32,517 bases of DNA, taken from assembly GCA_024224155.1 (NCBI GenBank), contig JAAENP010000293.1, positions 1 to 32,517 of the forward strand, read 5' to 3'. Source of the DNA: a bacterium (GTDB taxonomy: Bacteria; Acidobacteriota; Thermoanaerobaculia; Multivoradales; JAHEKO01). Position numbers and translations under genes: made by a program. The notes beneath the pieces were generated by a model. The model was not told the DNA's origin. It saw only the letters and a program-made list of their open reading frames with translations, and did no database searches. How positions within the stretch are numbered: the stretch's first letter is position 1; every line of letters starts with the position of its first letter. Below are positions 11,686 to 25,923 of this stretch, in pieces.

Positions 11686-12687
11686 TTAGCGCTTCGAGCG
11701 GATGCGCTCGACCAGGTCGCCGTAGCGGCCGGCGTGCTTGTCGTAGACCGGCTCGACGGCTTGGCGAAAGGCCTCGGGATCGTCGACCTCGTTGATCACC
11801 GAGCCGGCCTCGGTGACCGCTTGCGCGGCCTGCTTGCGGTAGTCGGCCCAGAACCGCCGCTGAGCTAGGGCCGAAGCTTCGGCCGCCGCGCGCAGGGCCT
11901 TCTGCTCATCGACCGATAGCTCCTGCCAGCGCTCGCGGGAGACCAGCACCACGTCGGGGATGATGGCGTGGCGGTCGGCCGAGTAGAAGCCGGCGGCTTC
12001 GAAATGGCGCTCCGATCGATACGACGGCAAGTTGTTTTCGGCACCATCGATCGCCCCGGTGTGGAGGCTGGTGTAGACCTGCTTGAAGCCGAGGGCCACG
12101 GGCGAGGCTCCCAACGACTCGACCAGGTCCCGCATCATCTCCGAGCGTTGGACGCGGATCTTGAGCCCGACAAGATCTTTGGGCCGGTGAATCGGTCGCG
12201 TGCGGTTGTAGAAGGAGCGCGCGCCGGCGTCGTACCAGGCGAGCGGTACGAATCCGGCCTCGATCAGACCGGCCGAGATCTCGTCGCCGATCTCACCCTC
12301 GAGGACTGTCCAGAGATGGCCGCTGTCACGGAACAGGAACGGCAGGGCCAGCACGCCCGCGACCGGCGCGAATTCCTGAAGCGGCGCCGCCGAGGCGCAG
12401 ACCATCTGAAGCGCGCCGAACCGCAGCTTCTCGAGCGTTTCTTTTTCATTGCCGAGAACGCCCCCGAGCTGCAGGTCGAGCTCGACGCGGCGGGCGAGCG
12501 TAGGATCGGCGGCTACCAGCTCGGCGAACCGGACCAGACCGCGAGCGGTGGGGTAGGTCTCGATGTGGACGTTCGAGAGCACCCAGGACTCGGGCCCATC
12601 CTGCGCGGTCGGGGAGCAACCCCCAAGTCCCAGAGCGGTCATCAGGCTGCCGAATCCGATCAGGCTGGCCAGCCCGAGACGAATCAT
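11686..12687 (-). CDS. dctP: TRAP transporter substrate-binding lipoprotein (DctP family)
   Basis: 333 residues. The N-terminus is a lipoprotein signal with lipobox LGGC, so the protein is probably tethered to a membrane on its periplasmic side. DctP hallmarks are GLKIRVQRSEMMRDLVESLG, a YTSLHTGAIDGAENN segment and W-x-L-S near the end. It captures a carboxylate-bearing ligand and delivers it to DctQM, driven by an ion gradient. The KIRVQ/IDGAENN pattern is shared with many sugar-acid and C4-dicarboxylate binders, so the exact ligand cannot be read from sequence alone. It is the last gene of a dctQ-dctM-dctP unit, 16 bases after the dctM stop. Adjacent to it across dctQM is a kinase with a uronate-kinase-like change, which favours a uronate ligand by context. 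Confidence 0.85.
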   Translation of the reverse strand: MIRLGLASLIGFGSLMTALGLGGCSPTAQDGPESWVLSNVHIETYPTARGLVRFAELVAADPTLARRVELDLQLGGVLGNEKETLEKLRFGALQMVCASAAPLQEFAPVAGVLALPFLFRDSGHLWTVLEGEIGDEISAGLIEAGFVPLAWYDAGARSFYNRTRPIHRPKDLVGLKIRVQRSEMMRDLVESLGASPVALGFKQVYTSLHTGAIDGAENNLPSYRSERHFEAAGFYSADRHAIIPDVVLVSRERWQELSVDEQKALRAAAEASALAQRRFWADYRKQAAQAVTEAGSVINEVDDPEAFRQAVEPVYDKHAGRYGDLVERIRSKR

Positions 12688-12703: not shown

Positions 12704-14005
12704 CTAGGTGCTCCGAGCGATCCAGTCGGGAAGCCACAACGAGAGCTCGGGAATGAAAGTGACCAGTAGCAGGACGACGATCATGACCAGATAGAACGGC
12801 ACCAGAGCCCGAGAGGTCGATTCGATCGAAGTCTTGCCGATGGCGCATCCGACGAAGAGTGTACTGCCCACCGGCGGCGTGCACAGCCCGATCCCCAGAT
12901 TCAGGAGCAGGATGATTCCGAACTGGATCGGATCGAGTCCCAGGCCTTCGGCGACCGGCAGCAGAATCGGCGTCAGGATCACGATCAGCGCCGCCATGTC
13001 CATGATCGCACCCAGGGCGAGCACGAGGACATTGAGAATCAGCAGAAGCGCGACTCGACTCGCCGGCAGGGCCGACAGCCACTCGGCCAGAAGTCGCGGC
13101 ACGTGCAGGTACGTCAGTGCCTCACCGAAGGCCGCGGCCGCGCCGATCAGGATCATCACCATGCCGGAGGTGCGGACCGCGCGGCGCAGGATGCCGCCGT
13201 AGGCGCGCAGGTCGAGCGATCGATACACGAACGACGAGACCATCACCGACCAGACCACCGCGATCACCGCCGACTGATGGGCCGGCGCCCAGCCCAGGGT
13301 GAGCGGCACGAGGATGATGAACGGAGTGAGCAGTGCCGGCAGCGCGGAGGCGGCGGCGCGCAGGGCATGTCGAAGGCTGAAGCTCTTGCCCTTCGGGTAG
13401 CCGCGGCGCTTCGCCACCCACGCCGAGAGGATCATCAAAGACAATCCGACCAGGATTCCCGGCACATAGCCGGCGAGAAAAAGGGCTTGGATCGAGACCG
13501 TGCCTCCCGCCGCCAGTGAGTAGAGGATGGCGTTGTGAGAGGGCGGCAGGATGATGCCCTGGGTCGACGAGGCGACCGTCACGGCGACCGAGAAGTCACG
13601 ATCGTAGCCGCGCTCGGCCATCGTCGGTATCAAAACCGGTCCGATGGACGCGGTGTCGGCGACGCTCGAGCCCGACATGCCGCCGAAGAACAGCGAGGCC
13701 ATGACGTTGACCATCGCCAGGCCTCCGCGTACGAAGCCGATCAACGCGTTGGCGAGGTCGACCAGCCGGCGGGCCATCCCGCCGGTGCTCATGATCTCGC
13801 CGCATAGGATGAAGAACGGAATCGCGAGCAGCGTCGGCTCGGCGATCTGGGTCGCGATCTTCTGGACCACCGAGAGCGCCGGGAGTCCCGAAGCGAAGAA
13901 GAAGACGAAGGCCGAGAGTCCGAGGCTGAAGGCCACCGGTACCCTGAGGACCAGCAGGAGCGCGAAGCAGCCGAAAACCAGGAGCGCGAGTGCGGGGTCG
14001 CTCAT
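12704..14005 (-). CDS. dctM: TRAP transporter large permease subunit
   Basis: 433 residues from ATG at 14005 (MSDPALALLVFGCF). Its start codon overlaps the dctQ stop by four bases (ATGA), a translational-coupling arrangement, so I rejected the upstream in-frame start at 14140. The protein is almost entirely hydrophobic, with about a dozen predicted helices. Family segments include PFFILCGEIMSTGGMARRLVDLANALIG, GGMSGSSVADTASIGPVLIPTM and LNLGIGLCTPPVGSTLFVG; only their positions matter here, near residues 50-80, 95-120 and 350-370. It forms the ion-coupled translocation channel with DctQ. Confidence 0.9.
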   Translation of the reverse strand: MSDPALALLVFGCFALLLVLRVPVAFSLGLSAFVFFFASGLPALSVVQKIATQIAEPTLLAIPFFILCGEIMSTGGMARRLVDLANALIGFVRGGLAMVNVMASLFFGGMSGSSVADTASIGPVLIPTMAERGYDRDFSVAVTVASSTQGIILPPSHNAILYSLAAGGTVSIQALFLAGYVPGILVGLSLMILSAWVAKRRGYPKGKSFSLRHALRAAASALPALLTPFIILVPLTLGWAPAHQSAVIAVVWSVMVSSFVYRSLDLRAYGGILRRAVRTSGMVMILIGAAAAFGEALTYLHVPRLLAEWLSALPASRVALLLILNVLVLALGAIMDMAALIVILTPILLPVAEGLGLDPIQFGIILLLNLGIGLCTPPVGSTLFVGCAIGKTSIESTSRALVPFYLVMIVVLLLVTFIPELSLWLPDWIARST

Positions 14006-14508
14006 TCGACCGGCGGCAGCGCGGCGTCTGCCGGTCGTGCGCTGGCTCCGCTGGCGCCGGAGATCGCCTGTTGCAAGCCGAGCCAGGCGATCAGGCCCCC
14101 GGCGACGACCGCGGGCTGGTAATGGACCGATGCGCTCCATCCGGTCCCCGGTAGCGTGTTTTGAACAGCGAGGACCAGGCGCGCGCCGTAGATCGCGAGC
14201 AGGACTCCGAACGCCGCATTGGCAACGCCGGGAGCCCGCGCCAGCGTCGGTTGCCAGCGAGCGGGCAGGCTACGGGCGACGAGATCGACGGCGAGGTGAA
14301 GACCTTCGGCCAGGCAATAGGCGGCGGCCAGAAGCGCCAGCCAGACCACCAAGACGCCTTGGATTTCCTCGATCGCGGCAAAAGACCTGCGCCAGAGCGT
14401 CCAGGCGAAGAGCTCGAAAGCCGCGTTGAGTGTCAACAGGCCCAGCAGGCCGGCGCAAACCGGCTCGAGAACTCGGACCAGCCTGCTCGAGCTCGCTCCT
14501 TCCAACAT
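14002..14508 (-). CDS. dctQ: TRAP transporter small permease subunit
   Basis: 168 residues with four hydrophobic segments, the usual DctQ size and topology. A conserved-looking WRRSFAAIEEIQGVLVVW region links helices 1 and 2. It is the first gene of the dctQMP unit and overlaps dctM by four bases. It has no obvious Shine-Dalgarno sequence. A minus-strand promoter candidate lies just upstream, giving a very short leader. Its start codon is about 43 bases from the start of the divergent sugar kinase, so the control regions of transporter and kinase must overlap. Confidence 0.85.
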   Translation of the reverse strand: MLEGASSSRLVRVLEPVCAGLLGLLTLNAAFELFAWTLWRRSFAAIEEIQGVLVVWLALLAAAYCLAEGLHLAVDLVARSLPARWQPTLARAPGVANAAFGVLLAIYGARLVLAVQNTLPGTGWSASVHYQPAVVAGGLIAWLGLQQAISGASGASARPADAALPPVE

Positions 14509-14551: not shown

Positions 14552-15781
14552 ATGGATGCGCGGTCGCGTGTGCTGGAAGGCTTTCGGCTTCGCTTCGGCG
14601 GCGAGCCCGAGTGGCTGGTTCGGGCGCCGGGCCGGGCCAACATCCTCGGAGCCCATATCGACTACAGCGAAGGCTGGGTGCTGCCGGGGGCTCTCGATCG
14701 TTCGGTTTGGCTAGCGTGTCGTGCCGCAGCCGGGGGAGAGAGGAAGACCTCGGTGATTCGAGCCCTCGACATCGACGCGGGCGCGGAGTCGGGCGCGGAT
14801 GCCGAGCTCGACGCCGAGTGGTTGCCTGTGCCGGTCGCGGAGAGGGACATCGAGCACCAGGGCGGGAGCTCGAGCTGGCTCGATCTTCCGCGAGGCGTTG
14901 CCTGGGCCCTGGCGAGAGCCGGGCATCAGGTGCCGCCGATCGAGGCGGCCTTCGCCAGTGACCTGCCGATCGGTGCCGGCGTCAGCTCCTCGGCGGCGGT
15001 CGAGGTCGCCTTTCTGATGGCCTGGGAGGCGGCGGCCGGCATCACGATCGGCGGCGTCGAGCGCGCCCGAGTGGGGCGTCGCGTCGAGAATGACTATCTC
15101 GGCGTACGCTCCGGAATCATGGACCAGTTCACCTCGATCCACGGCCGGTCCGGGCATCTGATTTTGCTGGATTGTCGCGACTTGAGCTTCGAGCAGGTCC
15201 CGCTGCCCGGTGAGGTTGCCATCGTGGTTGCCGACACCGGGGTTCGCCGCACGCTGGTCGACTCCGACTACAACAGCCGCCCCGACGAATGCCGGCGGGC
15301 GGTGGAGCGGCTGCGCGAGTTTCTGCCGGGGATTAGGACCTTGCGCGACGTCACCCTCGCCGATCTGGAGCAGCACGGGGCGGCGCTGTCGTCGACCCTG
15401 CGCAAGCGCGCGCGCCACGCGGTGGGGGAATGCCGCCGTGTGCTCGACGGCGCCGAAGCGCTTCGAAGCGGAAATCTGCTCCGGTTCGGCGAATTGATGC
15501 GTGAGTCTCACCAGAGCTCCCGGGACCTGTACGAGGTCTCGATTCCCGAGCTCGATGCGTTGGCCCATGCCGCCTGGTCCTCGCCGGGCTGCTACGGCGC
15601 GCGCCTGAGCGGTGCCGGCTTCGGCGGCTGCGTTATCGCGCTGGTCGAGGCCGACGCCGCCGGCGAGGTCGAGCGTCGTCTCTGGCGTGACTTCGAGCGC
15701 GCCTTCGGTCGGTCCTGCGCGACCTTCGTCTCCGGATTCGGCGAGGGCGCCGCCCTCGAGCCCATCGATCCAGGAGACTGA
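14552..15781 (+). CDS. GHMP sugar-1-kinase, galactokinase family, with Glu-to-Ala change in the sugar site
   Basis: 409 residues from ATG 14552, which aligns with the usual galactokinase N-terminus; ATGs at 14537 and 14507 are alternatives, and none has a good ribosome binding site. Family features are all present: PGRAN at 26-30, the phosphate loop LPIGAGVSSSAA at 139-149, GIMDQ with catalytic D191, DTGVRR and Y240, and LSGAGFGGC at 352-360. The signature GEHTDY reads GAHIDY here, so Ala34 replaces the Glu that contacts galactose (Glu43 in human GALK1). R28, H35, D37 and Y240 are kept. I recall plant galacturonokinase having GAHID at this position. The enzyme should transfer ATP phosphate to the C1 of a hexose-type sugar. 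A uronic acid is the inferred substrate, galactose the alternative. Confidence 0.8.
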   Translation: MDARSRVLEGFRLRFGGEPEWLVRAPGRANILGAHIDYSEGWVLPGALDRSVWLACRAAAGGERKTSVIRALDIDAGAESGADAELDAEWLPVPVAERDIEHQGGSSSWLDLPRGVAWALARAGHQVPPIEAAFASDLPIGAGVSSSAAVEVAFLMAWEAAAGITIGGVERARVGRRVENDYLGVRSGIMDQFTSIHGRSGHLILLDCRDLSFEQVPLPGEVAIVVADTGVRRTLVDSDYNSRPDECRRAVERLREFLPGIRTLRDVTLADLEQHGAALSSTLRKRARHAVGECRRVLDGAEALRSGNLLRFGELMRESHQSSRDLYEVSIPELDALAHAAWSSPGCYGARLSGAGFGGCVIALVEADAAGEVERRLWRDFERAFGRSCATFVSGFGEGAALEPIDPGD

Positions 15782-15926: not shown

Positions 15927-16280
15927 ATGCACGCCCCAAAAGCCACGGTCGAGATCCAGAACCTATCTCGCGACTGCCACCAGGCGCTGATTCTGGCCAT
16001 CCTCTCGTCGGGGCCACATCACGGCTACCAGTTGGCCCTGGAGCTGGAGGAGAGAAGCGATGGCGCCTTTCGCTTCAAACACGGGACCCTCTATCCGATT
16101 CTGCACCGGCTCGAGCTCGAGAGTCTCATTCAAGGGGAATGGTTGGATGAACAGAGCAAGCGCAAGCGCAAGCGCTACGCCTTGACTCGAGCCGGGCGGA
16201 AGCGCCTGGCCGAGCGAGTCGAGGCCTGGCGAGGCTTCTTTTCCCGTTTCTTTTCGATCGTCGAGGAGGCAAAGTCATGA
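15927..16280 (+). CDS. PadR-family transcriptional regulator
   Basis: 117 residues, typical of short PadR (subfamily 2) proteins. The winged-helix domain covers nearly all of it: LILAILSSGPHHGYQLALEL at ~21-40, then FRFKHGTLYPILHRLE, which is the PadR recognition-helix signature (GTLYPxLxRLE), and a basic wing (SKRKRKRYALT). It ends in an amphipathic dimerisation helix. AAAGG precedes the ATG by a few bases. Its ATGA overlap with the next gene indicates translational coupling to a membrane protein. PadR proteins usually repress their own operon and respond to a small ligand or envelope stress; here the palindrome over the -10 is the likely site. Confidence 0.9.
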   Translation: MHAPKATVEIQNLSRDCHQALILAILSSGPHHGYQLALELEERSDGAFRFKHGTLYPILHRLELESLIQGEWLDEQSKRKRKRYALTRAGRKRLAERVEAWRGFFSRFFSIVEEAKS

Positions 16281-17017
16281 GTCGATTCGCCGAAGTTCTG
16301 AGACAGGTCAGTGCCGAGCTGGATCTGCCCCAGCCGACAAAGTCGCGGATCCTGCTGGAGATGGCCGGAGACCTGGAGGATCTTTATCAACATCACCTGA
16401 GCCGGGGCCTTGACGAGGCCGCGGCCGCGCAGAGTGCGGAGGAGGCGTTCGTAGCTTCCGACGAGGCGCTCAAGCACCTGGCCCGGATTCATGAGTCGGG
16501 GGCTCGGCTCTCCGATCGAGCAGCTCGACAGGTCGGAACGCTGTGGGAGAAGGCGCTGCTCGTGATCTGGGTGCTGGCGGTGATTCTGCTCGTCGGCAAG
16601 GTCGCGACGGAAGAGCGGTTTTTCTACATGGTCAGTCCGTTCGTGTGGCCGATCGTTGCTCTGGCGGTCGCCGCCTTCGCCTTCAGCATGTGGAAGCTCT
16701 ACGAGCTGTTCTTGAGAAAGCCGCCCGATGTTCGCCGGCTACGCTCGGGGCTGAATACCTTGCTGTTTCTTTCCGCGGTTACCTTGGCGGTGTCGGCGTC
16801 CGGGTATCTCTACAACCTGCGCTGGCTCGCCTACAACTCCTATGAAAGCGCTCCCGAGGTGATCTTCAGGATGGCCGGTACCTGGTTCTTGGCGACCTCG
16901 TCGATGGTGATCCTGGGCCTCTCGACCGCCACCTTCACGGCTCTGATGTGGTTTCTGCTGGCGAACCTGGTGGCACGCTTCGAGCGTCGTGAAGTCAACG
17001 CCCTCCTCGCACAATGA
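16277..17017 (+). CDS. Four-helix membrane protein with N-terminal soluble helical (HAAS/permease-prefix-like) domain
   Basis: 246 residues. The first ~75 residues form a soluble helical domain (EVLRQVSAELDLP, ILLEMAGDLEDLY, EEAFVASDEALKHLARIH) resembling the small prefix domains that are paired with PadR regulators in many bacteria. Four hydrophobic segments follow at roughly 93-110, 118-148, 162-182 and 200-232. The start overlaps the padR stop by four bases. I infer that it is the target or sensor controlled by the PadR protein, but the biochemical role is unknown. No transport or enzyme motif is visible. Confidence 0.7.
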   Translation: MSRFAEVLRQVSAELDLPQPTKSRILLEMAGDLEDLYQHHLSRGLDEAAAAQSAEEAFVASDEALKHLARIHESGARLSDRAARQVGTLWEKALLVIWVLAVILLVGKVATEERFFYMVSPFVWPIVALAVAAFAFSMWKLYELFLRKPPDVRRLRSGLNTLLFLSAVTLAVSASGYLYNLRWLAYNSYESAPEVIFRMAGTWFLATSSMVILGLSTATFTALMWFLLANLVARFERREVNALLAQ

Positions 17018-17041
17018 TTCCGGACGATCAAGGAGACGATT

Positions 17042-17446
17042 ATGATCAAGTTCCTATCCGAAGCGGGCCCCTTCATTTTCCTGCAAGCCGCGCTGGCTTT
17101 GGTGATTCTGAGTCTCACCCTGATCAATGCCGTGCGTTTGGCGCTTCGCAGCGGTGAGCGCGCCGCCGCGGTCGGCCGCAGCATCGATGCCATCTTGTTC
17201 TGGGGCAGCCTGACCGCGATCTTCGGCTTCCTGGGCCAGTGGGTCGGGCTCTACAGAGGAGCCAACGCGATCTTTGACCACGGCGCGGTCAACCCGGCAC
17301 TCGTGGTGCTGGGCCTCGGCGAGTCCCTGAACACATCCGTCGTCGGCATGTTCACTTTGGTGATTGCGGCGTTCCTGTGGTTTTGTCTGCGTTCGTGGAT
17401 GCGCGCACGAGTGGCAGTTGGCGGCAACCTTTCTTCAAGTATTTGA
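17042..17446 (+). CDS. Small membrane protein resembling MotA/TolQ/ExbB channel proteins
   Basis: 134 residues with three hydrophobic segments: FIFLQAALALVILSLTLI, AILFWGSLTAIFGFLGQWVG, and TSVVGMFTLVIAAFLWFC. The LGLGESLNTSVVGMFTLVIA segment resembles the last helices of ExbB/TolQ proteins, but the protein is shorter than that family and has no ExbD-like partner nearby. AAGGAG upstream of ATG 17042 supports the start. It is the third gene of the PadR operon, 24 bases after the previous gene. It may form an ion channel or simply be an orphan membrane protein; confidence in the family is moderate to low. Confidence 0.6.
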   Translation: MIKFLSEAGPFIFLQAALALVILSLTLINAVRLALRSGERAAAVGRSIDAILFWGSLTAIFGFLGQWVGLYRGANAIFDHGAVNPALVVLGLGESLNTSVVGMFTLVIAAFLWFCLRSWMRARVAVGGNLSSSI

Positions 17447-17536: not shown

Positions 17537-18355
17537 CTAATCGGTTGGGCTCGGGGCCAGGTGACGGGCCCAATAGCCGTTGGCGGCGGCGTAGCCGGCG
17601 GGGTAACCCACGTCGAAGAGCGGCAGGGACAGCAGGCATCCGAGCGCGCCCTTCTCCTCGATGATCGCTTGATAAACGGGTACTTCGTCGAGCTCGGCCT
17701 GCGAGCCGTTGTTATCGCCACCGGGCCGAAACCGCTTCATGTACTCGAAGACCTGGGCGTGACAGATGTAGCGGCCGCAGGCTCGGACAACGGTCGCGCC
17801 TTCTTCGATCGCCAGCCGGCCGGGCCTCTTGTCACGCAAGTGCGAGATCTCGAGCACGCCCGCAGCCTTGCGCTCGAAGTCGATCAGACCGCAGTTGCCG
17901 AACTGGCCGCTGTGGGAATGGTCGAGCTCGAGCGCGCCGATGACGTCTCGGCCGTTTCTTGCGTAGAGGCTCACCATGCGCGAGAGACTGTGCTCGCGGG
18001 ATAGCAGGACGTTGTCCGGCAGAAGCAGCGCAAAGGGCTCGCCATCGGTGAAGTCACGGCACTGCCACATCGCGTCGGCGAGGCCTCGCTGCACGTCTTG
18101 CGTTACGTACTGAAAGCGAACACCGAGCTCGGAGTCGAGGCCGCCGTCGGCGAGGTACTCGAAAAGGAGTCCCTTGGTGGGACTCAGCACGATCGCGAGC
18201 TCGGTGAGCCCGGCCGCGGCGGCCTCCTCGATGACCCATTGAATAGCGGGCTTGCTGCCCACGGGCAGGAGCTCCTTGGGGACGACGCGCGAGACCGGCT
18301 CCATGCGGGTTCCCAGGCCGGCGGCGGGGATGACCGCCTTCGTCACTGCGCTCAT
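17537..18355 (-). CDS. GalU-like nucleotidyltransferase (UTP-sugar-1-phosphate uridylyltransferase family)
   Basis: 272 residues from ATG 18355; the in-frame upstream extension to 18427 is tandem-repeat DNA and was not used. The nucleotide-binding signature is AAGLGTRMEP with VVPKELLPVGSKP close behind, the GalU pattern. Also present are IVLSPTKGLLFEYL, the QDVQRGLADAMW loop and the FALLLPDNVL metal-site segment. GalU enzymes make UDP-glucose from UTP and glucose-1-phosphate; related enzymes use other sugar-1-phosphates. The protein is slightly shorter at its C-terminus than standard GalU. It lies on the minus strand about 1.8 kb from the sugar kinase, so any link with that kinase is by proximity only. 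Confidence 0.85.
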   Translation of the reverse strand: MSAVTKAVIPAAGLGTRMEPVSRVVPKELLPVGSKPAIQWVIEEAAAAGLTELAIVLSPTKGLLFEYLADGGLDSELGVRFQYVTQDVQRGLADAMWQCRDFTDGEPFALLLPDNVLLSREHSLSRMVSLYARNGRDVIGALELDHSHSGQFGNCGLIDFERKAAGVLEISHLRDKRPGRLAIEEGATVVRACGRYICHAQVFEYMKRFRPGGDNNGSQAELDEVPVYQAIIEEKGALGCLLSLPLFDVGYPAGYAAANGYWARHLAPSPTD

Positions 18356-18396
18356 CGGGGGAGGATACTTCGATCGGCCGATCCCGCCTATCGATC

Positions 18397-18441
18397 TTGG
18401 ACTGGCCGAGGTTGGTTTGCCCGACATTGGGCTGGCCGACG
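18397..18441. repeat. Three-unit 15-bp tandem repeat
   Basis: Units start at 18397, 18412 and 18427 and share the pattern TTGGnyTGsCCGAsr; a degenerate fourth begins at 18442. The array lies just upstream of the nucleotidyltransferase start in the divergent gap (18356-18598). It is unlikely to be coding, although it is open in some frames. Confidence 0.6.
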
Positions 18442-19442: not shown

Positions 19443-19483
19443 GGAGCCGGGTCCGGTGACTCGGCTCCTCGTGGCGCTCTTTT
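19443..19483 (+). terminator. Strong hairpin, candidate intrinsic terminator
   Basis: GGAGCCG (19443-19449) pairs with CGGCTCC (19462-19468). A G.T wobble and an inner GTC/GAC pairing extend the stem to about 11 pairs around loop CGGT. TTTT at 19480-19483 lies 11 bases after the stem, later than ideal, so termination is plausible but not certain. Confidence 0.5.
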
Positions 19484-19514
19484 GTTCGCCGGGCGAATGG
19501 TAGCCTTGCTTGCC

Positions 19515-20417
19515 ATGCGCATTCGATTGGATTCGGTCGAGACGACCGCCCGGGCGCTCGCCGAGCACGAGTACATCGCCGACACCGGCCTCTCGACCAG
19601 CCTCTTTTTGGCTCTCGAGATGGGCAAGCCGCTGTTTCTCGAAGGCGAGCCCGGCGTCGGCAAGACCGAGGTCGCCAAGGTCCTGAGCCGCGTCTTCGAC
19701 ACGCCGCTCATCCGCCTGCAGTGCTACGAGGGGCTGGATATCAGTCAGGCCGTCTACGAGTGGAACTACCCGCGGCAGCTGCTCGAGATCCAGGCTCGAC
19801 GGGGCGGTGCCGAGGGCTCCCCGAGGCCGGCCGTCTCGACCACCAAAGACATCTTCACCGAGGACTTCCTGCTCAAGCGGCCCCTGCTTCAAGCCATCGA
19901 CCAGAGCCACGACAGCGCGCCGGTTCTCCTGGTCGATGAGCTGGATCGGGCCGATGAGGAGTTCGAGAGCTTTCTGCTCGAGCTCCTGTCCGACTTCCAG
20001 ATCACCATTCCCGAGATCGGGACCCTGCACGCCGAGCACCGGCCGATGATCGTGATCACCTCCAATCGCACGCGTGAGATTCACGACGCACTCAAGCGGC
20101 GCTGCGTCTATCACTGGATCGACTATCCCTCGCTGGAGAAAGAGATCGAGATCGTGAGGCGCAAAGTGCCGCAGATCGAGGAGCGGCTGAGCCGTGACGT
20201 CGTCGCCTTCGTTCAGAAGCTGCGCGAGCAGGACCTTTACAAGCTCCCCGGCGTGGCGGAGACGCTGGACTGGGCGGCGGCGCTCGAGCACCTGAACACT
20301 CGCGAGCTGACGCCCGACGCAGTGGTTTCGACCCTAGGCCTGCTACTCAAGTACCAGGACGACGTCGACAAGCTCAAGGCCGAGGCCCCCGGCGTCCTCG
20401 AACAGGCCCTTGGCTAG
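19515..20417 (+). CDS. coxD: MoxR-family AAA+ ATPase, CoxD-like
   Basis: 300 residues from ATG 19515; an earlier in-frame start at 19482 lies on the terminator tail and was not chosen. Walker A is GEPGVGKT at 44-51 and Walker B VLLVDELDR at 137-145, followed by the MoxR-typical ADEEFESFLLELL. An ITSNRTREIHDALKRRC sensor/arginine-finger region follows. MoxR ATPases pair with VWA proteins to remodel or load cofactors into enzymes. In carboxydotrophs CoxD works with CoxE to build the Mo/Cu site of CO dehydrogenase. Its last eight bases overlap the coxE-like gene. Confidence 0.85.
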   Translation: MRIRLDSVETTARALAEHEYIADTGLSTSLFLALEMGKPLFLEGEPGVGKTEVAKVLSRVFDTPLIRLQCYEGLDISQAVYEWNYPRQLLEIQARRGGAEGSPRPAVSTTKDIFTEDFLLKRPLLQAIDQSHDSAPVLLVDELDRADEEFESFLLELLSDFQITIPEIGTLHAEHRPMIVITSNRTREIHDALKRRCVYHWIDYPSLEKEIEIVRRKVPQIEERLSRDVVAFVQKLREQDLYKLPGVAETLDWAAALEHLNTRELTPDAVVSTLGLLLKYQDDVDKLKAEAPGVLEQALG

Positions 20418-21672
20418 CCGGACGGAGGGGGCGAGGCCGATTCTGGCCAACCTCCTGCTGTTCGGACGGGCTCTGCGGGCCGCCGGCCTTCCGGTGACTC
20501 ACAGCCAGTCGCTCGACTTTGCGCGGGCTCTCGAGCTGGTCGACGTCGGCAGCCGCGATCAGGTGTTTCATGCGGCGCGCTCCTTCCTGGTCAATCGGCG
20601 AGAGGAGCTCGAGTTGTTCGAGCTGCTCTTCAATCGGTTCTGGCGCTCGCGAGGCTCCGATTCCGCTGCCGCTTCGGCCAAGGGCCAGAGCACGACGCCC
20701 CAGCCTCGACGCGATCGGGACAGACTCCGCCCCCTGGGCAGAGTCGACTATTTGGCGGCCGCCTCAGGACAGGCCGACGCCGAGATCGACCTCCGCGAAC
20801 GGGCCCAGACGTTCAGCGACCTGGAAGTCCTGCAGCGCAAGGACTTCTCCGAAATGTCGGCTGCCGAGCTGGAGGAGCTGCGCCGCCTCATTCTGGAGAT
20901 GCGGTGGCGGGCCAGCCTGAGGCGGACGCGGCGCTGGAGCGCAGACTCGCGTGGGACGCGCCTTCACCTCGGGCGAGTCCTGCGAGAGGCCGCTCGGCAC
21001 GGTGGAACGCCCTTGCGCCTGGCGCGGCGCCGGCGCAAGACCAAGCGCCGGCCGATAGTTCTTCTGGCGGACATCAGCGGCTCGATGGAGAAGTACTCGC
21101 GCATCATCCTGCAGTTCTTCTACGGTGCCTTGCACGGCTTCGGCGCCGGCGACGTCGAATGCTTTGTCTTCGGCACGCGACTGACGTGCATCACGTCCTC
21201 CCTTCGCATTCGCAACGTCGATCGAGCTCTGGAAGATGCGTCGGCCGAGATTCTGGACTGGTCCGGAGGCACCCGCATCGGCGAGAGCCTGGGAGTCTTC
21301 AATCGCCATTGGGCGCGGCGCGTGCTGCGTCGCGGCGCGGTCGTCATTATCGTTAGCGACGGCTGGGAGCGTGGCGACGTCTCGGTCCTACGTCGCGAGA
21401 TGCGGCATCTGCATCATCGTTCGCATCGGCTCATCTGGCTCAACCCTCACGTCGGCCGGCCCGGCTACGAGCCGCTGGTCGAAGGCATGGTGGGGGCCCT
21501 GCCGTTCATCGATGACTTCTTGCCGATTCACAATCTCGAGTCGCTTCGGGCGCTGGGCGATGCTCTGGCCGAGCTGCCGGCGCGAAAGAGGCTCAGCAAC
21601 TCCTATCGGCCCGCGAAGCTCAAGCCCGCTTCCAGCAGAAGCCAGACCAACCCCAGACCCGCTGTGAGGTAG
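20410..21672 (+). CDS. coxE: VWA-domain protein, CoxE-like
   Basis: 420 residues from TTG 20410, overlapping the previous gene by eight bases. The N-terminal half is helical and rich in Arg/Glu. The C-terminal VWA domain has the MIDAS motif D221-I-S-G-S225-M, then GGTRIGES and IIVSDGWERGD, as in CoxE proteins. CoxE is the metal-binding partner of the CoxD ATPase. The extreme C-terminus (SSRSQTNPRPAVR) is low-complexity and overlaps a possible antisense small gene. Confidence 0.85.
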   Translation: MASRTEGARPILANLLLFGRALRAAGLPVTHSQSLDFARALELVDVGSRDQVFHAARSFLVNRREELELFELLFNRFWRSRGSDSAAASAKGQSTTPQPRRDRDRLRPLGRVDYLAAASGQADAEIDLRERAQTFSDLEVLQRKDFSEMSAAELEELRRLILEMRWRASLRRTRRWSADSRGTRLHLGRVLREAARHGGTPLRLARRRRKTKRRPIVLLADISGSMEKYSRIILQFFYGALHGFGAGDVECFVFGTRLTCITSSLRIRNVDRALEDASAEILDWSGGTRIGESLGVFNRHWARRVLRRGAVVIIVSDGWERGDVSVLRREMRHLHHRSHRLIWLNPHVGRPGYEPLVEGMVGALPFIDDFLPIHNLESLRALGDALAELPARKRLSNSYRPAKLKPASSRSQTNPRPAVR

Positions 21673-21710
21673 AGGATCGCTACGATCCGGTCTTGTCGAG
21701 TGGATTTCAT
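21603..21710 (-). CDS. Possible 35-residue single-helix membrane protein
   Basis: Minus-strand ATG at 21710 preceded by GAGGAAGAACAGG. The product begins MKSTRQDR and continues with one hydrophobic helix (IVAILYLTAGLGLVWLLLEAG), ending SFAGR. Basic N-terminus plus single helix is typical of small membrane proteins. It overlaps the 3' end of the coxE-like gene by 70 bases in antisense, so it may be chance; no homologue is known to me. Confidence 0.35.
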   Translation of the reverse strand: MKSTRQDRIVAILYLTAGLGLVWLLLEAGLSFAGR

Positions 21711-21881
21711 CCTGTTCTTCCTCTCACCGCTTCCTCTGTAAGTACCATTACCGCTGGCACTCGATTCCTGACAGAAAGTTGCGACATGACGGGGTCTTTC
21801 GGCGCGACTGTGTGCGGGAGCTGTGGTACTTTGCCGCGTCGGTCGCAACTCGCCGACATCGCTGACAGGAGGACACCGTTC

Positions 21882-22490
21882 ATGAAGGTCGCCGGTGAAT
21901 ACACCTTTGACGCATCTCCCGCGGACGTTTGGAAAGGGCTGATGGATCCCGAGGTCCTGGCTGCCACCATGCCCGGCTGCGAGAAGCTCGAGCTGGTCGG
22001 AGACAACGAGTACGAGGGCGAGCTGAACATCAAGGTCGGACCGGTGCAGGGGCGTTTCAAGGGGCGGATCGAGCTCGAGAACATCGATGCGCCCCATAGC
22101 TATGACATGAAGGTCAATGGCCAGGGCGCCCAGGGCTTCGTCCAGGCGACGGCGCACGTCGCGATCAGCCCGGCGGAGGACAAGACCCGGATGACCTACG
22201 CGGGCGACGCTCAGATCGGCGGCCGGATAGCGGGCGTCGGTCAGCGCTTGCTCGACAGCTCGGCGAAGGCCATCATCAGGCAAAGCCTCGGCGGGCTCAA
22301 CACCGTGCTCGGGGGCGCGGGTACGACCGAAGCAACCACGGCTTCGCGGGCTCCCACGGCGGCCCCGTCCCAGGCCGAGTTCGCCGCGAACGTGGCCAAG
22401 GAAGTCGCCAAAGACCTGATCCCGAAGCCGGTCTGGATCGTGCTCGCCCTTTTGCTCGGGGCAACCATCCTGTATCTGCTGCTTTCTTGA
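21882..22490 (+). CDS. coxG: SRPBCC protein, CO dehydrogenase subunit G (CoxG) family, with C-terminal membrane anchor
   Basis: 202 residues from ATG 21882, with AGGAGG shortly upstream. Residues 1-150 match the CoxG SRPBCC fold: KVAGEYTFDASPADVWKGL, DPEVLAATMPGCEKLE, the VGPVQGRFKGRIEL strand pair, and a GGRIAGVGQRLLDSSAKAI helix. A Thr/Ala-rich linker (~150-175) leads to one C-terminal helix, WIVLALLLGATILYLLLS, so it is a tail-anchored protein. In Oligotropha CoxG recruits CO dehydrogenase to the membrane. It follows coxDE with a ~209-base gap. Confidence 0.85.
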   Translation: MKVAGEYTFDASPADVWKGLMDPEVLAATMPGCEKLELVGDNEYEGELNIKVGPVQGRFKGRIELENIDAPHSYDMKVNGQGAQGFVQATAHVAISPAEDKTRMTYAGDAQIGGRIAGVGQRLLDSSAKAIIRQSLGGLNTVLGGAGTTEATTASRAPTAAPSQAEFAANVAKEVAKDLIPKPVWIVLALLLGATILYLLLS

Positions 22491-23993: not shown

Positions 23994-24860
23994 ATGATGC
24001 TCTCGCCCGATCTGGAACTGGTCATCGTCACCGGCAAGGGTGGCGTTGGCAAGACCACGGTTGCGGCGGCGCTGGCCTGGCGGATCGCCCGGAGCCGGCG
24101 TGTGATGCTGCTCGAGGTGGACCCGCGCGAAAGCGCCCACCGCCTGTTCGACGTGCCGCCCTCGGGCGGCGAGCCGGTCAAGGCCGGCGAACGCCTGGAG
24201 CTGCTTCATGCGCGCTCGAGACAGGTGGTCGACGAGATCGTCCAGGACAAGCTCAAGGTCGCACCGCTGGTGCGGCGGCTCCAGGCGAGTCCGATCTACG
24301 AGCATTTCATCGACGGCGCTCCGGGCCTCAAGGAACTGGCGCTGCTCCGCTATGCCCATAGCCTGGTCAAGGGGGCGAAGCGCAAGCGCCGAGCCGATTG
24401 CGTGGTCCTCGACTCGCCGGCAACCGGACACGCTCTGGCTCTCCTGTCGGCGCCGGTCCTGGCGGCGGAAGCCATTGGCGCGGGTCCGATCGCGGCGCTG
24501 GCGCGCGAGGTCGCCACCTGGCTGAGCGCCGAGACCACCGGGCTGGTTTTGGTAACCCTGGCCGAGGAGCTTCCGGTCACCGAGACCCTCGAAGCCGCCG
24601 ACGCGCTCGGCGAGGTTCTCGGCAAGCCGCCCGAGGCCTGGATCGCCAACGCCCTCTACCCCGAGGTCCCCGCCCAGCTCGAGAGTAACGACTCGGTCAC
24701 CGAGCTGTGGCGGCGGCGGCGCGCGGTCAACGAGCGCGAGCTGGCCCGGCTCGCGCGAGCGGTGGGCGAACCCGTGGTCTCTTTGCCGCTCCTGCCGATC
24801 GACGAGGGCAGCCGTCTGGTCGCGGCGCTCTCGAGAGAGCTCGAGGCAAGCGATGAGTAG
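23994..24860 (+). CDS. ArsA/Get3-like P-loop ATPase, first of a pair
   Basis: 288 residues. The deviant Walker A is G14-K-G-G-V-G-K20-T, with the signature lysine (K15) that reaches across the dimer. Switch I reads LEVDPRESAHRLF and switch II DSPATGHALALL, close to the ArsA pattern DTAPTGHTLRLL. Family members bind ATP as dimers and deliver substrates such as tail-anchored proteins (Get3) or pump arsenite (ArsA). No arsenite-binding Cys triad is visible, so arsenite transport is unlikely. It overlaps the next gene by eight bases, suggesting a heterodimer. Confidence 0.85.
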   Translation: MMLSPDLELVIVTGKGGVGKTTVAAALAWRIARSRRVMLLEVDPRESAHRLFDVPPSGGEPVKAGERLELLHARSRQVVDEIVQDKLKVAPLVRRLQASPIYEHFIDGAPGLKELALLRYAHSLVKGAKRKRRADCVVLDSPATGHALALLSAPVLAAEAIGAGPIAALAREVATWLSAETTGLVLVTLAEELPVTETLEAADALGEVLGKPPEAWIANALYPEVPAQLESNDSVTELWRRRRAVNERELARLARAVGEPVVSLPLLPIDEGSRLVAALSRELEASDE

Positions 24861-25923
24861 ATCCGGCCCGCTGGCGGAGCTGCCGAGGCGACTGGTCTTC
24901 GTCGGCAGTGGAGGAGTGGGGAAGACCACCCTGGCGGCCGCTCTGGCGGTTCACTTCGCGGCTCATGGCGAGCGCACGCTGGTGATGACCTTCGACCCGT
25001 CGCTCCGCCTGAAGGACGCCTTGGGAATCGGCGACTCCGGCAAGGGTGACAACGTCGACGCTCAGGAAGGTCAGGTTCGAGTCGAGTTCGAGTCCAAGGC
25101 CGGCGGTGAGCTCTGGGCGCATCTTCTCGATGCGCGCCGAACCTTCGACCGCCTGATTCACCGCTACGCACCGGACGTCGCATCGCGAGATCGCATCCTT
25201 TCGAACCGCTTCTTCCGGCACCTGGCCGGGCGCCTGGCGGGCATCCTCGAGTACATGGCGGTGGAGAGGCTCTATGAGGCGGTCAGGTCGGAGCGGTTCG
25301 ACCGGATCATCCTGGACACGCCGCCCACGCGTGAGGCCCTCGAGTTTCTCGACGCGCCCCAGCGGATCGTCTCGTTTCTCGACAGCGGCGCCCTGCGCAT
25401 GGCTCTCAAGCCCTGGTTCGACGAAGACGGTCGCTTTCGCCCGAAGTCCTTGCCGGGCCTGGGGATGCCGCTCGAAGCTCTTCTCGATCGCATGGTCGGT
25501 ATCGACCTGCTGCGCGATATGGCCGAATTCTTTCAGGCCTTCGCGCCGCTCTTCGACGGCTTTCGCGAGCGCGCGCTGGAGGTGGACGGGCTCCTGCGTT
25601 CGAGCGACACCGGGTTCGTGCTGGTCACGGCGGCGGCCGAGCGCAATCTAGCCGACACGATGTTCTTCGCGCGCAATCTGACCGAGCGTTCCCACGAGCT
25701 GGTTGCGGTCGTCGCCAACCGGGTTCATCCCGCCGCCGAGGACGAAGACCTCGAGCTCATGCGCTGGCTCGGCGAGCGCGACCAGAAGGGCGTCGCCCAG
25801 CTGAGAGACCTGCTGGCCGACGGGCCGGCGGTGGTGTCTCTGCCGCTTCTGCCGGCCTCCCCCGCCGATATTCCGCGTCTGGAGGCCCTGGGTAAGCGGA
25901 TGGAAGCTGCCTGGTTCGAGTGA
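24853..25923 (+). CDS. ArsA/Get3-like P-loop ATPase, second of a pair
   Basis: 356 residues from ATG 24853. Walker A is G18-S-G-G-V-G-K24-T: the catalytic lysine is kept but the intersubunit signature lysine is replaced by Ser19. Switch I is TFDPSLRLKDALG and switch II is DTPPTREALEFL. A long helical region (residues ~170-260) could form a substrate groove or lid. I recall a paired Get3-like heterodimer in mycobacteria with similar organisation. Here the pair precedes the PHA genes but is separated from them by a strong promoter. Confidence 0.85.
   Translation: MSRSGPLAELPRRLVFVGSGGVGKTTLAAALAVHFAAHGERTLVMTFDPSLRLKDALGIGDSGKGDNVDAQEGQVRVEFESKAGGELWAHLLDARRTFDRLIHRYAPDVASRDRILSNRFFRHLAGRLAGILEYMAVERLYEAVRSERFDRIILDTPPTREALEFLDAPQRIVSFLDSGALRMALKPWFDEDGRFRPKSLPGLGMPLEALLDRMVGIDLLRDMAEFFQAFAPLFDGFRERALEVDGLLRSSDTGFVLVTAAAERNLADTMFFARNLTERSHELVAVVANRVHPAAEDEDLELMRWLGERDQKGVAQLRDLLADGPAVVSLPLLPASPADIPRLEALGKRMEAAWFE

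Follow-up and report, generated by a model that had tools for sequence, protein, structure and literature searches.

The window, by which we mean the whole 32,517-nucleotide stretch of acidobacterial DNA analyzed here, carries a gene whose product probably is a galactokinase-fold sugar-1-kinase with a hexuronate as its substrate; D-galacturonate is the most likely one, and D-glucuronate is a possibility. The uronate reading of this predicted enzyme follows from an altered sugar-site motif, a uronate-type TRAP importer encoded next to the kinase, and the linkage and co-occurrence of the kinase gene with that of a nucleotidyltransferase. With a little less assurance, we favor the broader view that the gene represents an acidobacterial lineage of uronate-1-kinases that is fed by import, in which a TRAP importer, the kinase and the nucleotidyltransferase would act in turn to give an NDP-uronate. 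Such a lineage would be a bacterial counterpart of plant uronate salvage, mis-annotated as galactokinase and GalU. The features on which these readings are based are listed in Table 1.

Table 1. Features of the window that bear on the proposed uronate-1-kinase
Feature	Position	Strand	Evidence
Proposed uronate-1-kinase (GHMP kinase, galactokinase fold)	14552..15781	+	translation, Pfam, TIGR00131, tree, AlphaFold model
GAHIDY motif, residues 33-38; Ala34 codon (14651-14653) in place of galactokinase Glu	14648..14665	+	
Asp191 codon, catalytic aspartate, conserved	15122..15124	+	alignment
Tyr240 codon, sugar-site Tyr; Tyr or Phe in the clade	15269..15271	+	alignment
Ser323 codon, clade-diagnostic; Leu in 52/54 canonical homologues	15518..15520	+	alignment
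43-bp divergent intergenic region, dctQ start codon to kinase start codon	14509..14551	.	
DctQ, TRAP transporter small permease	14002..14508	-	PF04290
DctM, TRAP transporter large permease, ORF as listed	12704..14140	-	TIGR00786, PF06808
DctP, TRAP solute-binding protein, uronate type (R157, R178, N218)	11686..12687	-	
GalU-like sugar-1-phosphate nucleotidyltransferase	17537..18427	-	profile searches, alignments

A galactokinase-like protein with an altered sugar site

The kinase gene is translated from ATG to stop as 409 amino acids, with no internal stop codon. The protein matches the Pfam domains GalKase_gal_bdg, GHMP_kinases_N and GHMP_kinases_C, and it scores 270.6 bits against the TIGR00131 gal_kin model, for which the cut-off is 226.65. 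Because it passes this NCBI galactokinase model and has both the galactokinase signature and the GHMP domains, its automatic name would be galactokinase. Among solved structures, the human and Lactococcus galactokinases come nearest in sequence, and the AlphaFold model (pLDDT 87) superimposes on human galactokinase with a Z score of 48.6 and an rmsd of 2.4 over 377 residues. The GalK signature, the N- and C-terminal GHMP domains and the fold that define the galactokinase superfamily are therefore all present. The acidic residue expected of a functional galactokinase at the C6-facing site of GEHTDY is absent, and Ala34 occupies its place, as expected in the GAHID motif of a galacturonokinase (EC 2.7.1.44).

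Residues 32-42 of the protein read LGAHIDYSEGW, and in the alignment Ala34 takes the place of the Glu in GEHTDY of human galactokinase, which confirms the original prediction that this motif has become GAHIDY. The prediction also held that the remaining catalytic and sugar-site residues are kept. Alignments bear this out: R28, H35, D37 and D191 do not vary among clade members or among 54 canonical homologues, and residue 240 of the window protein is Tyr. The SSSAA and GAGFGG motifs are likewise intact. In galactokinase, the C1 hydroxyl is where the equivalents of Asp191 and Arg28 act; those of Asp37 and Tyr240 hold ring hydroxyls, and the C6 hydroxyl is contacted by the Glu of GEHTDY.

Position 34 in related kinases

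Relatives of the kinase were drawn from the class (149 genomes) and the phylum (396 genomes). Of the 34 genomes with a clade kinase, position 34 was read in all but G039, in which the gene is truncated, and G068 and G071, which were not aligned. In the alignments, this position is Ala, Gly or Ser in every readable homologue of about 46% identity or more; the exceptions to Ala within the clade are Gly in L002 and L070 and Ser in L036. The residue is Glu or Asp in all 54 canonical homologues, E. coli GalK included. Because every readable clade member has A, G or S and every canonical homologue has E or D, Ala34 is attributable neither to chance nor to sequencing error. The possibility that GAH is common in proven galactokinases, which would have undermined the original prediction, finds no support among the sampled homologues, in which the only proven bacterial galactokinase aligned is that of E. 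coli.

An unrooted tree (IQ-TREE, 78 rows) places the window protein inside an acid-free acidobacterial clade with support of 100/96, and the split from the E/D kinases is supported at 99/80. Position 34 changes once on this tree. Because the tree is unrooted, an acid-free ancestor and a loss of the acid would be equally possible, and repeated loss was considered and is unsupported, given the single change.

Residue 323, which did not figure in the original prediction, is Ser in 20/20 clade members and Leu in nearly all canonical homologues (52/54). Convergent evolution of a coupled A34-S323 pair is also unsupported, given that position 34 changes once. Since the change is shared by descent, S323 serves as a marker and gives no separate evidence that the pocket is coupled. 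Residue 240 is Phe in many clade members and Tyr in the window protein, so substrate specificity may vary within the clade. No relative of the kinase was found in a search of a viral collection. One further kinase (L125, 3496-5046) has GNHTDY, with Asn for Glu, and it shares the Ser of the window protein at position 323.

A TRAP transporter with a uronate-type binding protein

The genes dctQ, dctM and dctP are on the opposite strand, divergent from the kinase gene and 43 bases upstream of it; the true start of DctM is probably later than that of the listed ORF. The best matches of DctP in the PDB are 4ovq, 4n8y, 4x8r, 4p1l, 4pf8 and 4n15, among which 4ovq, 4p1l and 4pf8 are presumably hexuronate-bound. 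Of the others, the ligand is galacturonate in 4N8Y and glucuronate in 4X8R (PMC11668362), and a further TRAP binding protein, Bpro_3107 (4MHF), binds both (PMC7660916). Known glucuronate binders are marked by two arginines and one asparagine (PMC7660916), and judging by eye from spacing and from motifs in the alignments, R157, R178 and N218 of DctP stand at the places of this signature. DctP therefore combines the Arg/Arg/Asn residues of a uronate-binding TRAP protein with nearest similarity to uronate-bound structures. The model of DctP is poor (pLDDT 63), and its substrate was read from sequence evidence alone. The transporters represented by 4N8Y, 4X8R, Bpro_3107 and STM3169 resemble that of the window both in the sequence of the binding protein and in the signature. 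However, the links of STM3169 and its relatives are to uronate catabolism (PMC7660916), whereas those of the window transporter are to a 1-kinase and a nucleotidyltransferase.

The original prediction named a galacturonate-1-kinase. Its uronate part is supported by the linkage to the TRAP and nucleotidyltransferase genes, by the clade-wide loss of the acid and by the absence of GalT. The evidence stops short of galacturonate itself, because the nearest solved binding proteins include binders of galacturonate and of glucuronate. Perhaps, then, the substrate is D-glucuronate or both uronates, in which case the pathway would be the same and the protein would be a galactokinase-fold glucuronokinase. 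We regard this as rather unlikely, even though the structures nearest to DctP include glucuronate binders such as 4X8R. Phe240 in many clade members would also fit, and a Y250F variant of plant galacturonokinase reportedly accepts glucuronate. The window protein itself, however, keeps Tyr240 and a galactokinase-type pocket (R28, H35, D37, D191), and the known glucuronokinases of plants and fish (zebrafish) belong to a GHMP branch other than that of the galactokinase-fold window kinase. D-galacturonate therefore stays the preferred substrate.

Genes for galactose and uronate metabolism

GalT (PF01087) was not found in the window's genome or in any of the 34 genomes with a clade kinase, all of these being incomplete assemblies. 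Because some genomes with canonical GEH kinases are also without GalT, this absence was down-weighted as weak evidence. Kinases with E or D are within about 1 kb of GalT in G089, G090, G130, G131 and G134. This arrangement in the class argues against an ordinary galactokinase that tolerates Ala34 and whose product, galactose-1-phosphate, is turned into UDP-galactose by the nucleotidyltransferase without GalT. Such an enzyme would suit the match to the NCBI galactokinase model, the fold and the retention of most pocket residues, but it is improbable in view of the E or D in 54/54 canonical homologues and of the neighboring importer, since TRAP systems transport organic acids and this one has a binding protein of the uronate type.

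The missing acid at position 34 by itself predicts a C6 group that is different or negatively charged. The enzyme might therefore phosphorylate some other acidic or modified sugar, for instance mannuronate, guluronate, an N-acetylhexosaminuronate or a keto-deoxy sugar acid. The wider list of TRAP matches does hold binders of other sugar acids, for example 7BBR with 2-keto-3-deoxygluconate. However, the ten best matches of DctP (E below 1e-53) are presumably all hexuronate binders, as papers state for several of them, and binders of sialate and keto-deoxy acids come far lower in the list. We consider such a substrate still less probable than galactose, and a hexuronate remains the preferred reading.

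UxaC was not found in the window's genome, nor was UxuA in that genome or in the whole family, and there was thus no sign of the classical isomerase pathway for uronates. KDPG aldolase is present, which leaves room for oxidative uronate catabolism. Genes of the UDP-sugar dehydrogenase type occur in all genomes of the class and do not discriminate between them. Because these genes are universal, UDP-uronate could be formed without salvage, and salvage would be an addition to its supply, not the sole source.

The linked nucleotidyltransferase

The nucleotidyltransferase scores 127 bits against the GalU model TIGR01099 and does not reach the cut-off of 326.8. It belongs to a distinct group, with 46% identity or more among its members, while the next full-length matches reach at most 35%. 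The catalytic motifs GLGTRM, PDN and DVG are kept, the segment corresponding to VEKP of GalU is altered, and K-x-P-G-R-L is invariant in the group. It is a matter of speculation that the last two features would suit an acidic sugar phosphate. Between the kinase and the nucleotidyltransferase genes, the window has a PadR regulator and two unassigned small ORFs (positions 15927-17446), an insertion that the closest relatives, L001 and L009, lack.

Gene order and co-occurrence in relatives

The kinase, transporter and nucleotidyltransferase genes stay together through several rearrangements; the term operon refers here to close, co-directional genes as defined from sequence. In L001/L056, all three are grouped around one point, and in L067 they form a single co-directional row in the order nucleotidyltransferase, kinase, DctQMP. 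Adjoining, co-directional pairs of kinase and nucleotidyltransferase occur in L063, L064 and L069, and the two genes are convergent in L001, L009, L028 and L070. In L002, the kinase gene is divergent from the TRAP genes and has no close nucleotidyltransferase. The 43 bp between divergent start codons in the window would also accommodate a protein that has no kinase activity and senses sugar, as yeast Gal3 does, to control the transporter promoter, but this is very improbable because D191, R28, SSSAA and GAGFGG are intact and the kinase gene adjoins the nucleotidyltransferase gene co-directionally in L063, L064, L067 and L069.

An active kinase in a common pathway is the reading we prefer. Close homologues of DctP (56% identity or more) are present in 11/149 genomes of the class, and all 11 have a clade kinase. 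Close nucleotidyltransferases (46% or more) are also found in 11 of the 149, with a clade kinase in 10/11. Fisher p values are 2e-8 for DctP with the kinase and 1e-6 for the nucleotidyltransferase with the kinase, and both are overstated because related genomes were treated as independent. One close nucleotidyltransferase (48%; G062:C604:1505-2293) is in an assembly of about 1390 contigs in which a clade kinase was not found. In the genus g23, whose 20 genomes have GAH kinases of 55% identity, the importer and the nucleotidyltransferase were found neither nearby nor at the 56% and 46% thresholds used above, which counts against the proposed pathway, and the kinase neighbors (enoyl-CoA hydratase, GH20, amidohydrolase) gave no functional lead. 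The g23 enzyme has Phe240.

A proposed uronate salvage pathway

In the proposed pathway, the divergent TRAP transporter DctPQM would import the uronate. The kinase would then phosphorylate the anomeric hydroxyl by using ATP, with Asp191 and Arg28 acting as in galactokinase, and the lost acid at position 34 would leave space for the C6 carboxylate and spare it charge repulsion. The GalU-like nucleotidyltransferase would convert the uronate-1-phosphate into an NDP-uronate, probably the UDP form, which might be used in glycan synthesis or epimerization. We infer the substrate, the product, the nucleotide and the use of the pathway.

The usual view is that bacteria degrade uronates, through isomerase or oxidative pathways, and derive their UDP-uronates from UDP-glucose. 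If the proposal is correct, this scheme would gain a salvage branch, in which a bacterial kinase activates free uronate so that it can be used again. Automatic galactokinase names would be corrected across an acidobacterial clade that has a simple sequence marker, namely A, G or S at position 34 together with Ser323. The enzymes might also become a source for making UDP-uronates.

Comparison with known enzymes

The fold predicted for the window kinase is a known one, and the reaction proposed for it is known in plants. The nearest known enzyme, plant galacturonokinase (GalAK, At3g10700), makes GalA-1-P, from which a pyrophosphorylase gives UDP-GalA (PMC8636097). The plant and window enzymes are both GHMP sugar-1-kinases. 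However, the later step in plants is made by UDP-sugar pyrophosphorylase (SLOPPY), whereas the gene linked to the window kinase encodes a GalU-like enzyme, and plant GalAK salvages wall sugars, whereas the window kinase is linked to an importer. We take plant GalAK to have Ala in its GAHID motif, like Ala34 of the window kinase, and an A41E change reportedly abolishes its activity. Glucuronokinases from plants and zebrafish (GKUP) likewise represent a uronate-1-kinase step that is followed by a pyrophosphorylase, and in GKUP the glucuronokinase is fused to a nucleotidyltransferase domain of bacterial type (PMC3938481). A bacterial galacturonokinase or glucuronokinase was not found in the literature searched, in which the uronate-1-kinase step is reported in eukaryotes only; the importer-linked bacterial form was not found described there either.

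Galactokinase GalK (human GALK1 and E. coli) shares the whole fold and the catalytic residues of the window kinase and provides the closest solved structures. It differs in keeping Glu or Asp where the window protein has Ala34, in having Leu at the Ser323 site in most sampled sequences, and in being linked to galT in E. coli and in the five acidobacterial genomes mentioned above.

A second, distant group of GHMP kinases is also acid-free, with the motif (L/I/V)GAHVDHQ (L043, 4002-5198; L044; L045, 9205-10422; L046, 10229-11446). Residue 323 is Ser in 4/4 of these proteins, and in L043 and L045 they adjoin a different nucleotidyltransferase with a hexapeptide tail. Measured against a provisional plant GalAK sequence, identity is 38-41% for L043-L046, 33% for the window protein and 27% for E. 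coli GalK. This provisional sequence has A41, Y250 and A368, presumably the positions that were mutated in the plant enzyme. If it is right, L043-L046 may be closer bacterial relatives of plant GalAK, and the window clade may be a second acid-free branch nearer to galactokinase, which offers a lead.

In two genomes without PF01087 GalT, GEHTDY kinases are located beside a symporter that by eye is of the sodium:solute type and beside another NTP-transferase (L073, 9468-12485; L074, 5504-9104). Perhaps these loci represent a GalT-free galactose route.

Other genes in the window

Genes for a MoxR-like AAA ATPase, a VWA-domain protein and a CoxG-like protein occur in a row at 19482-22490 and resemble accessory genes of carbon monoxide dehydrogenase; by eye, no large dehydrogenase subunits were noticed nearby. 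At 23994-25923, two adjacent ORFs that by eye resemble ArsA/GET3 ATPases are located upstream of ORFs for a PHA-regulator-like and a phasin-like protein.
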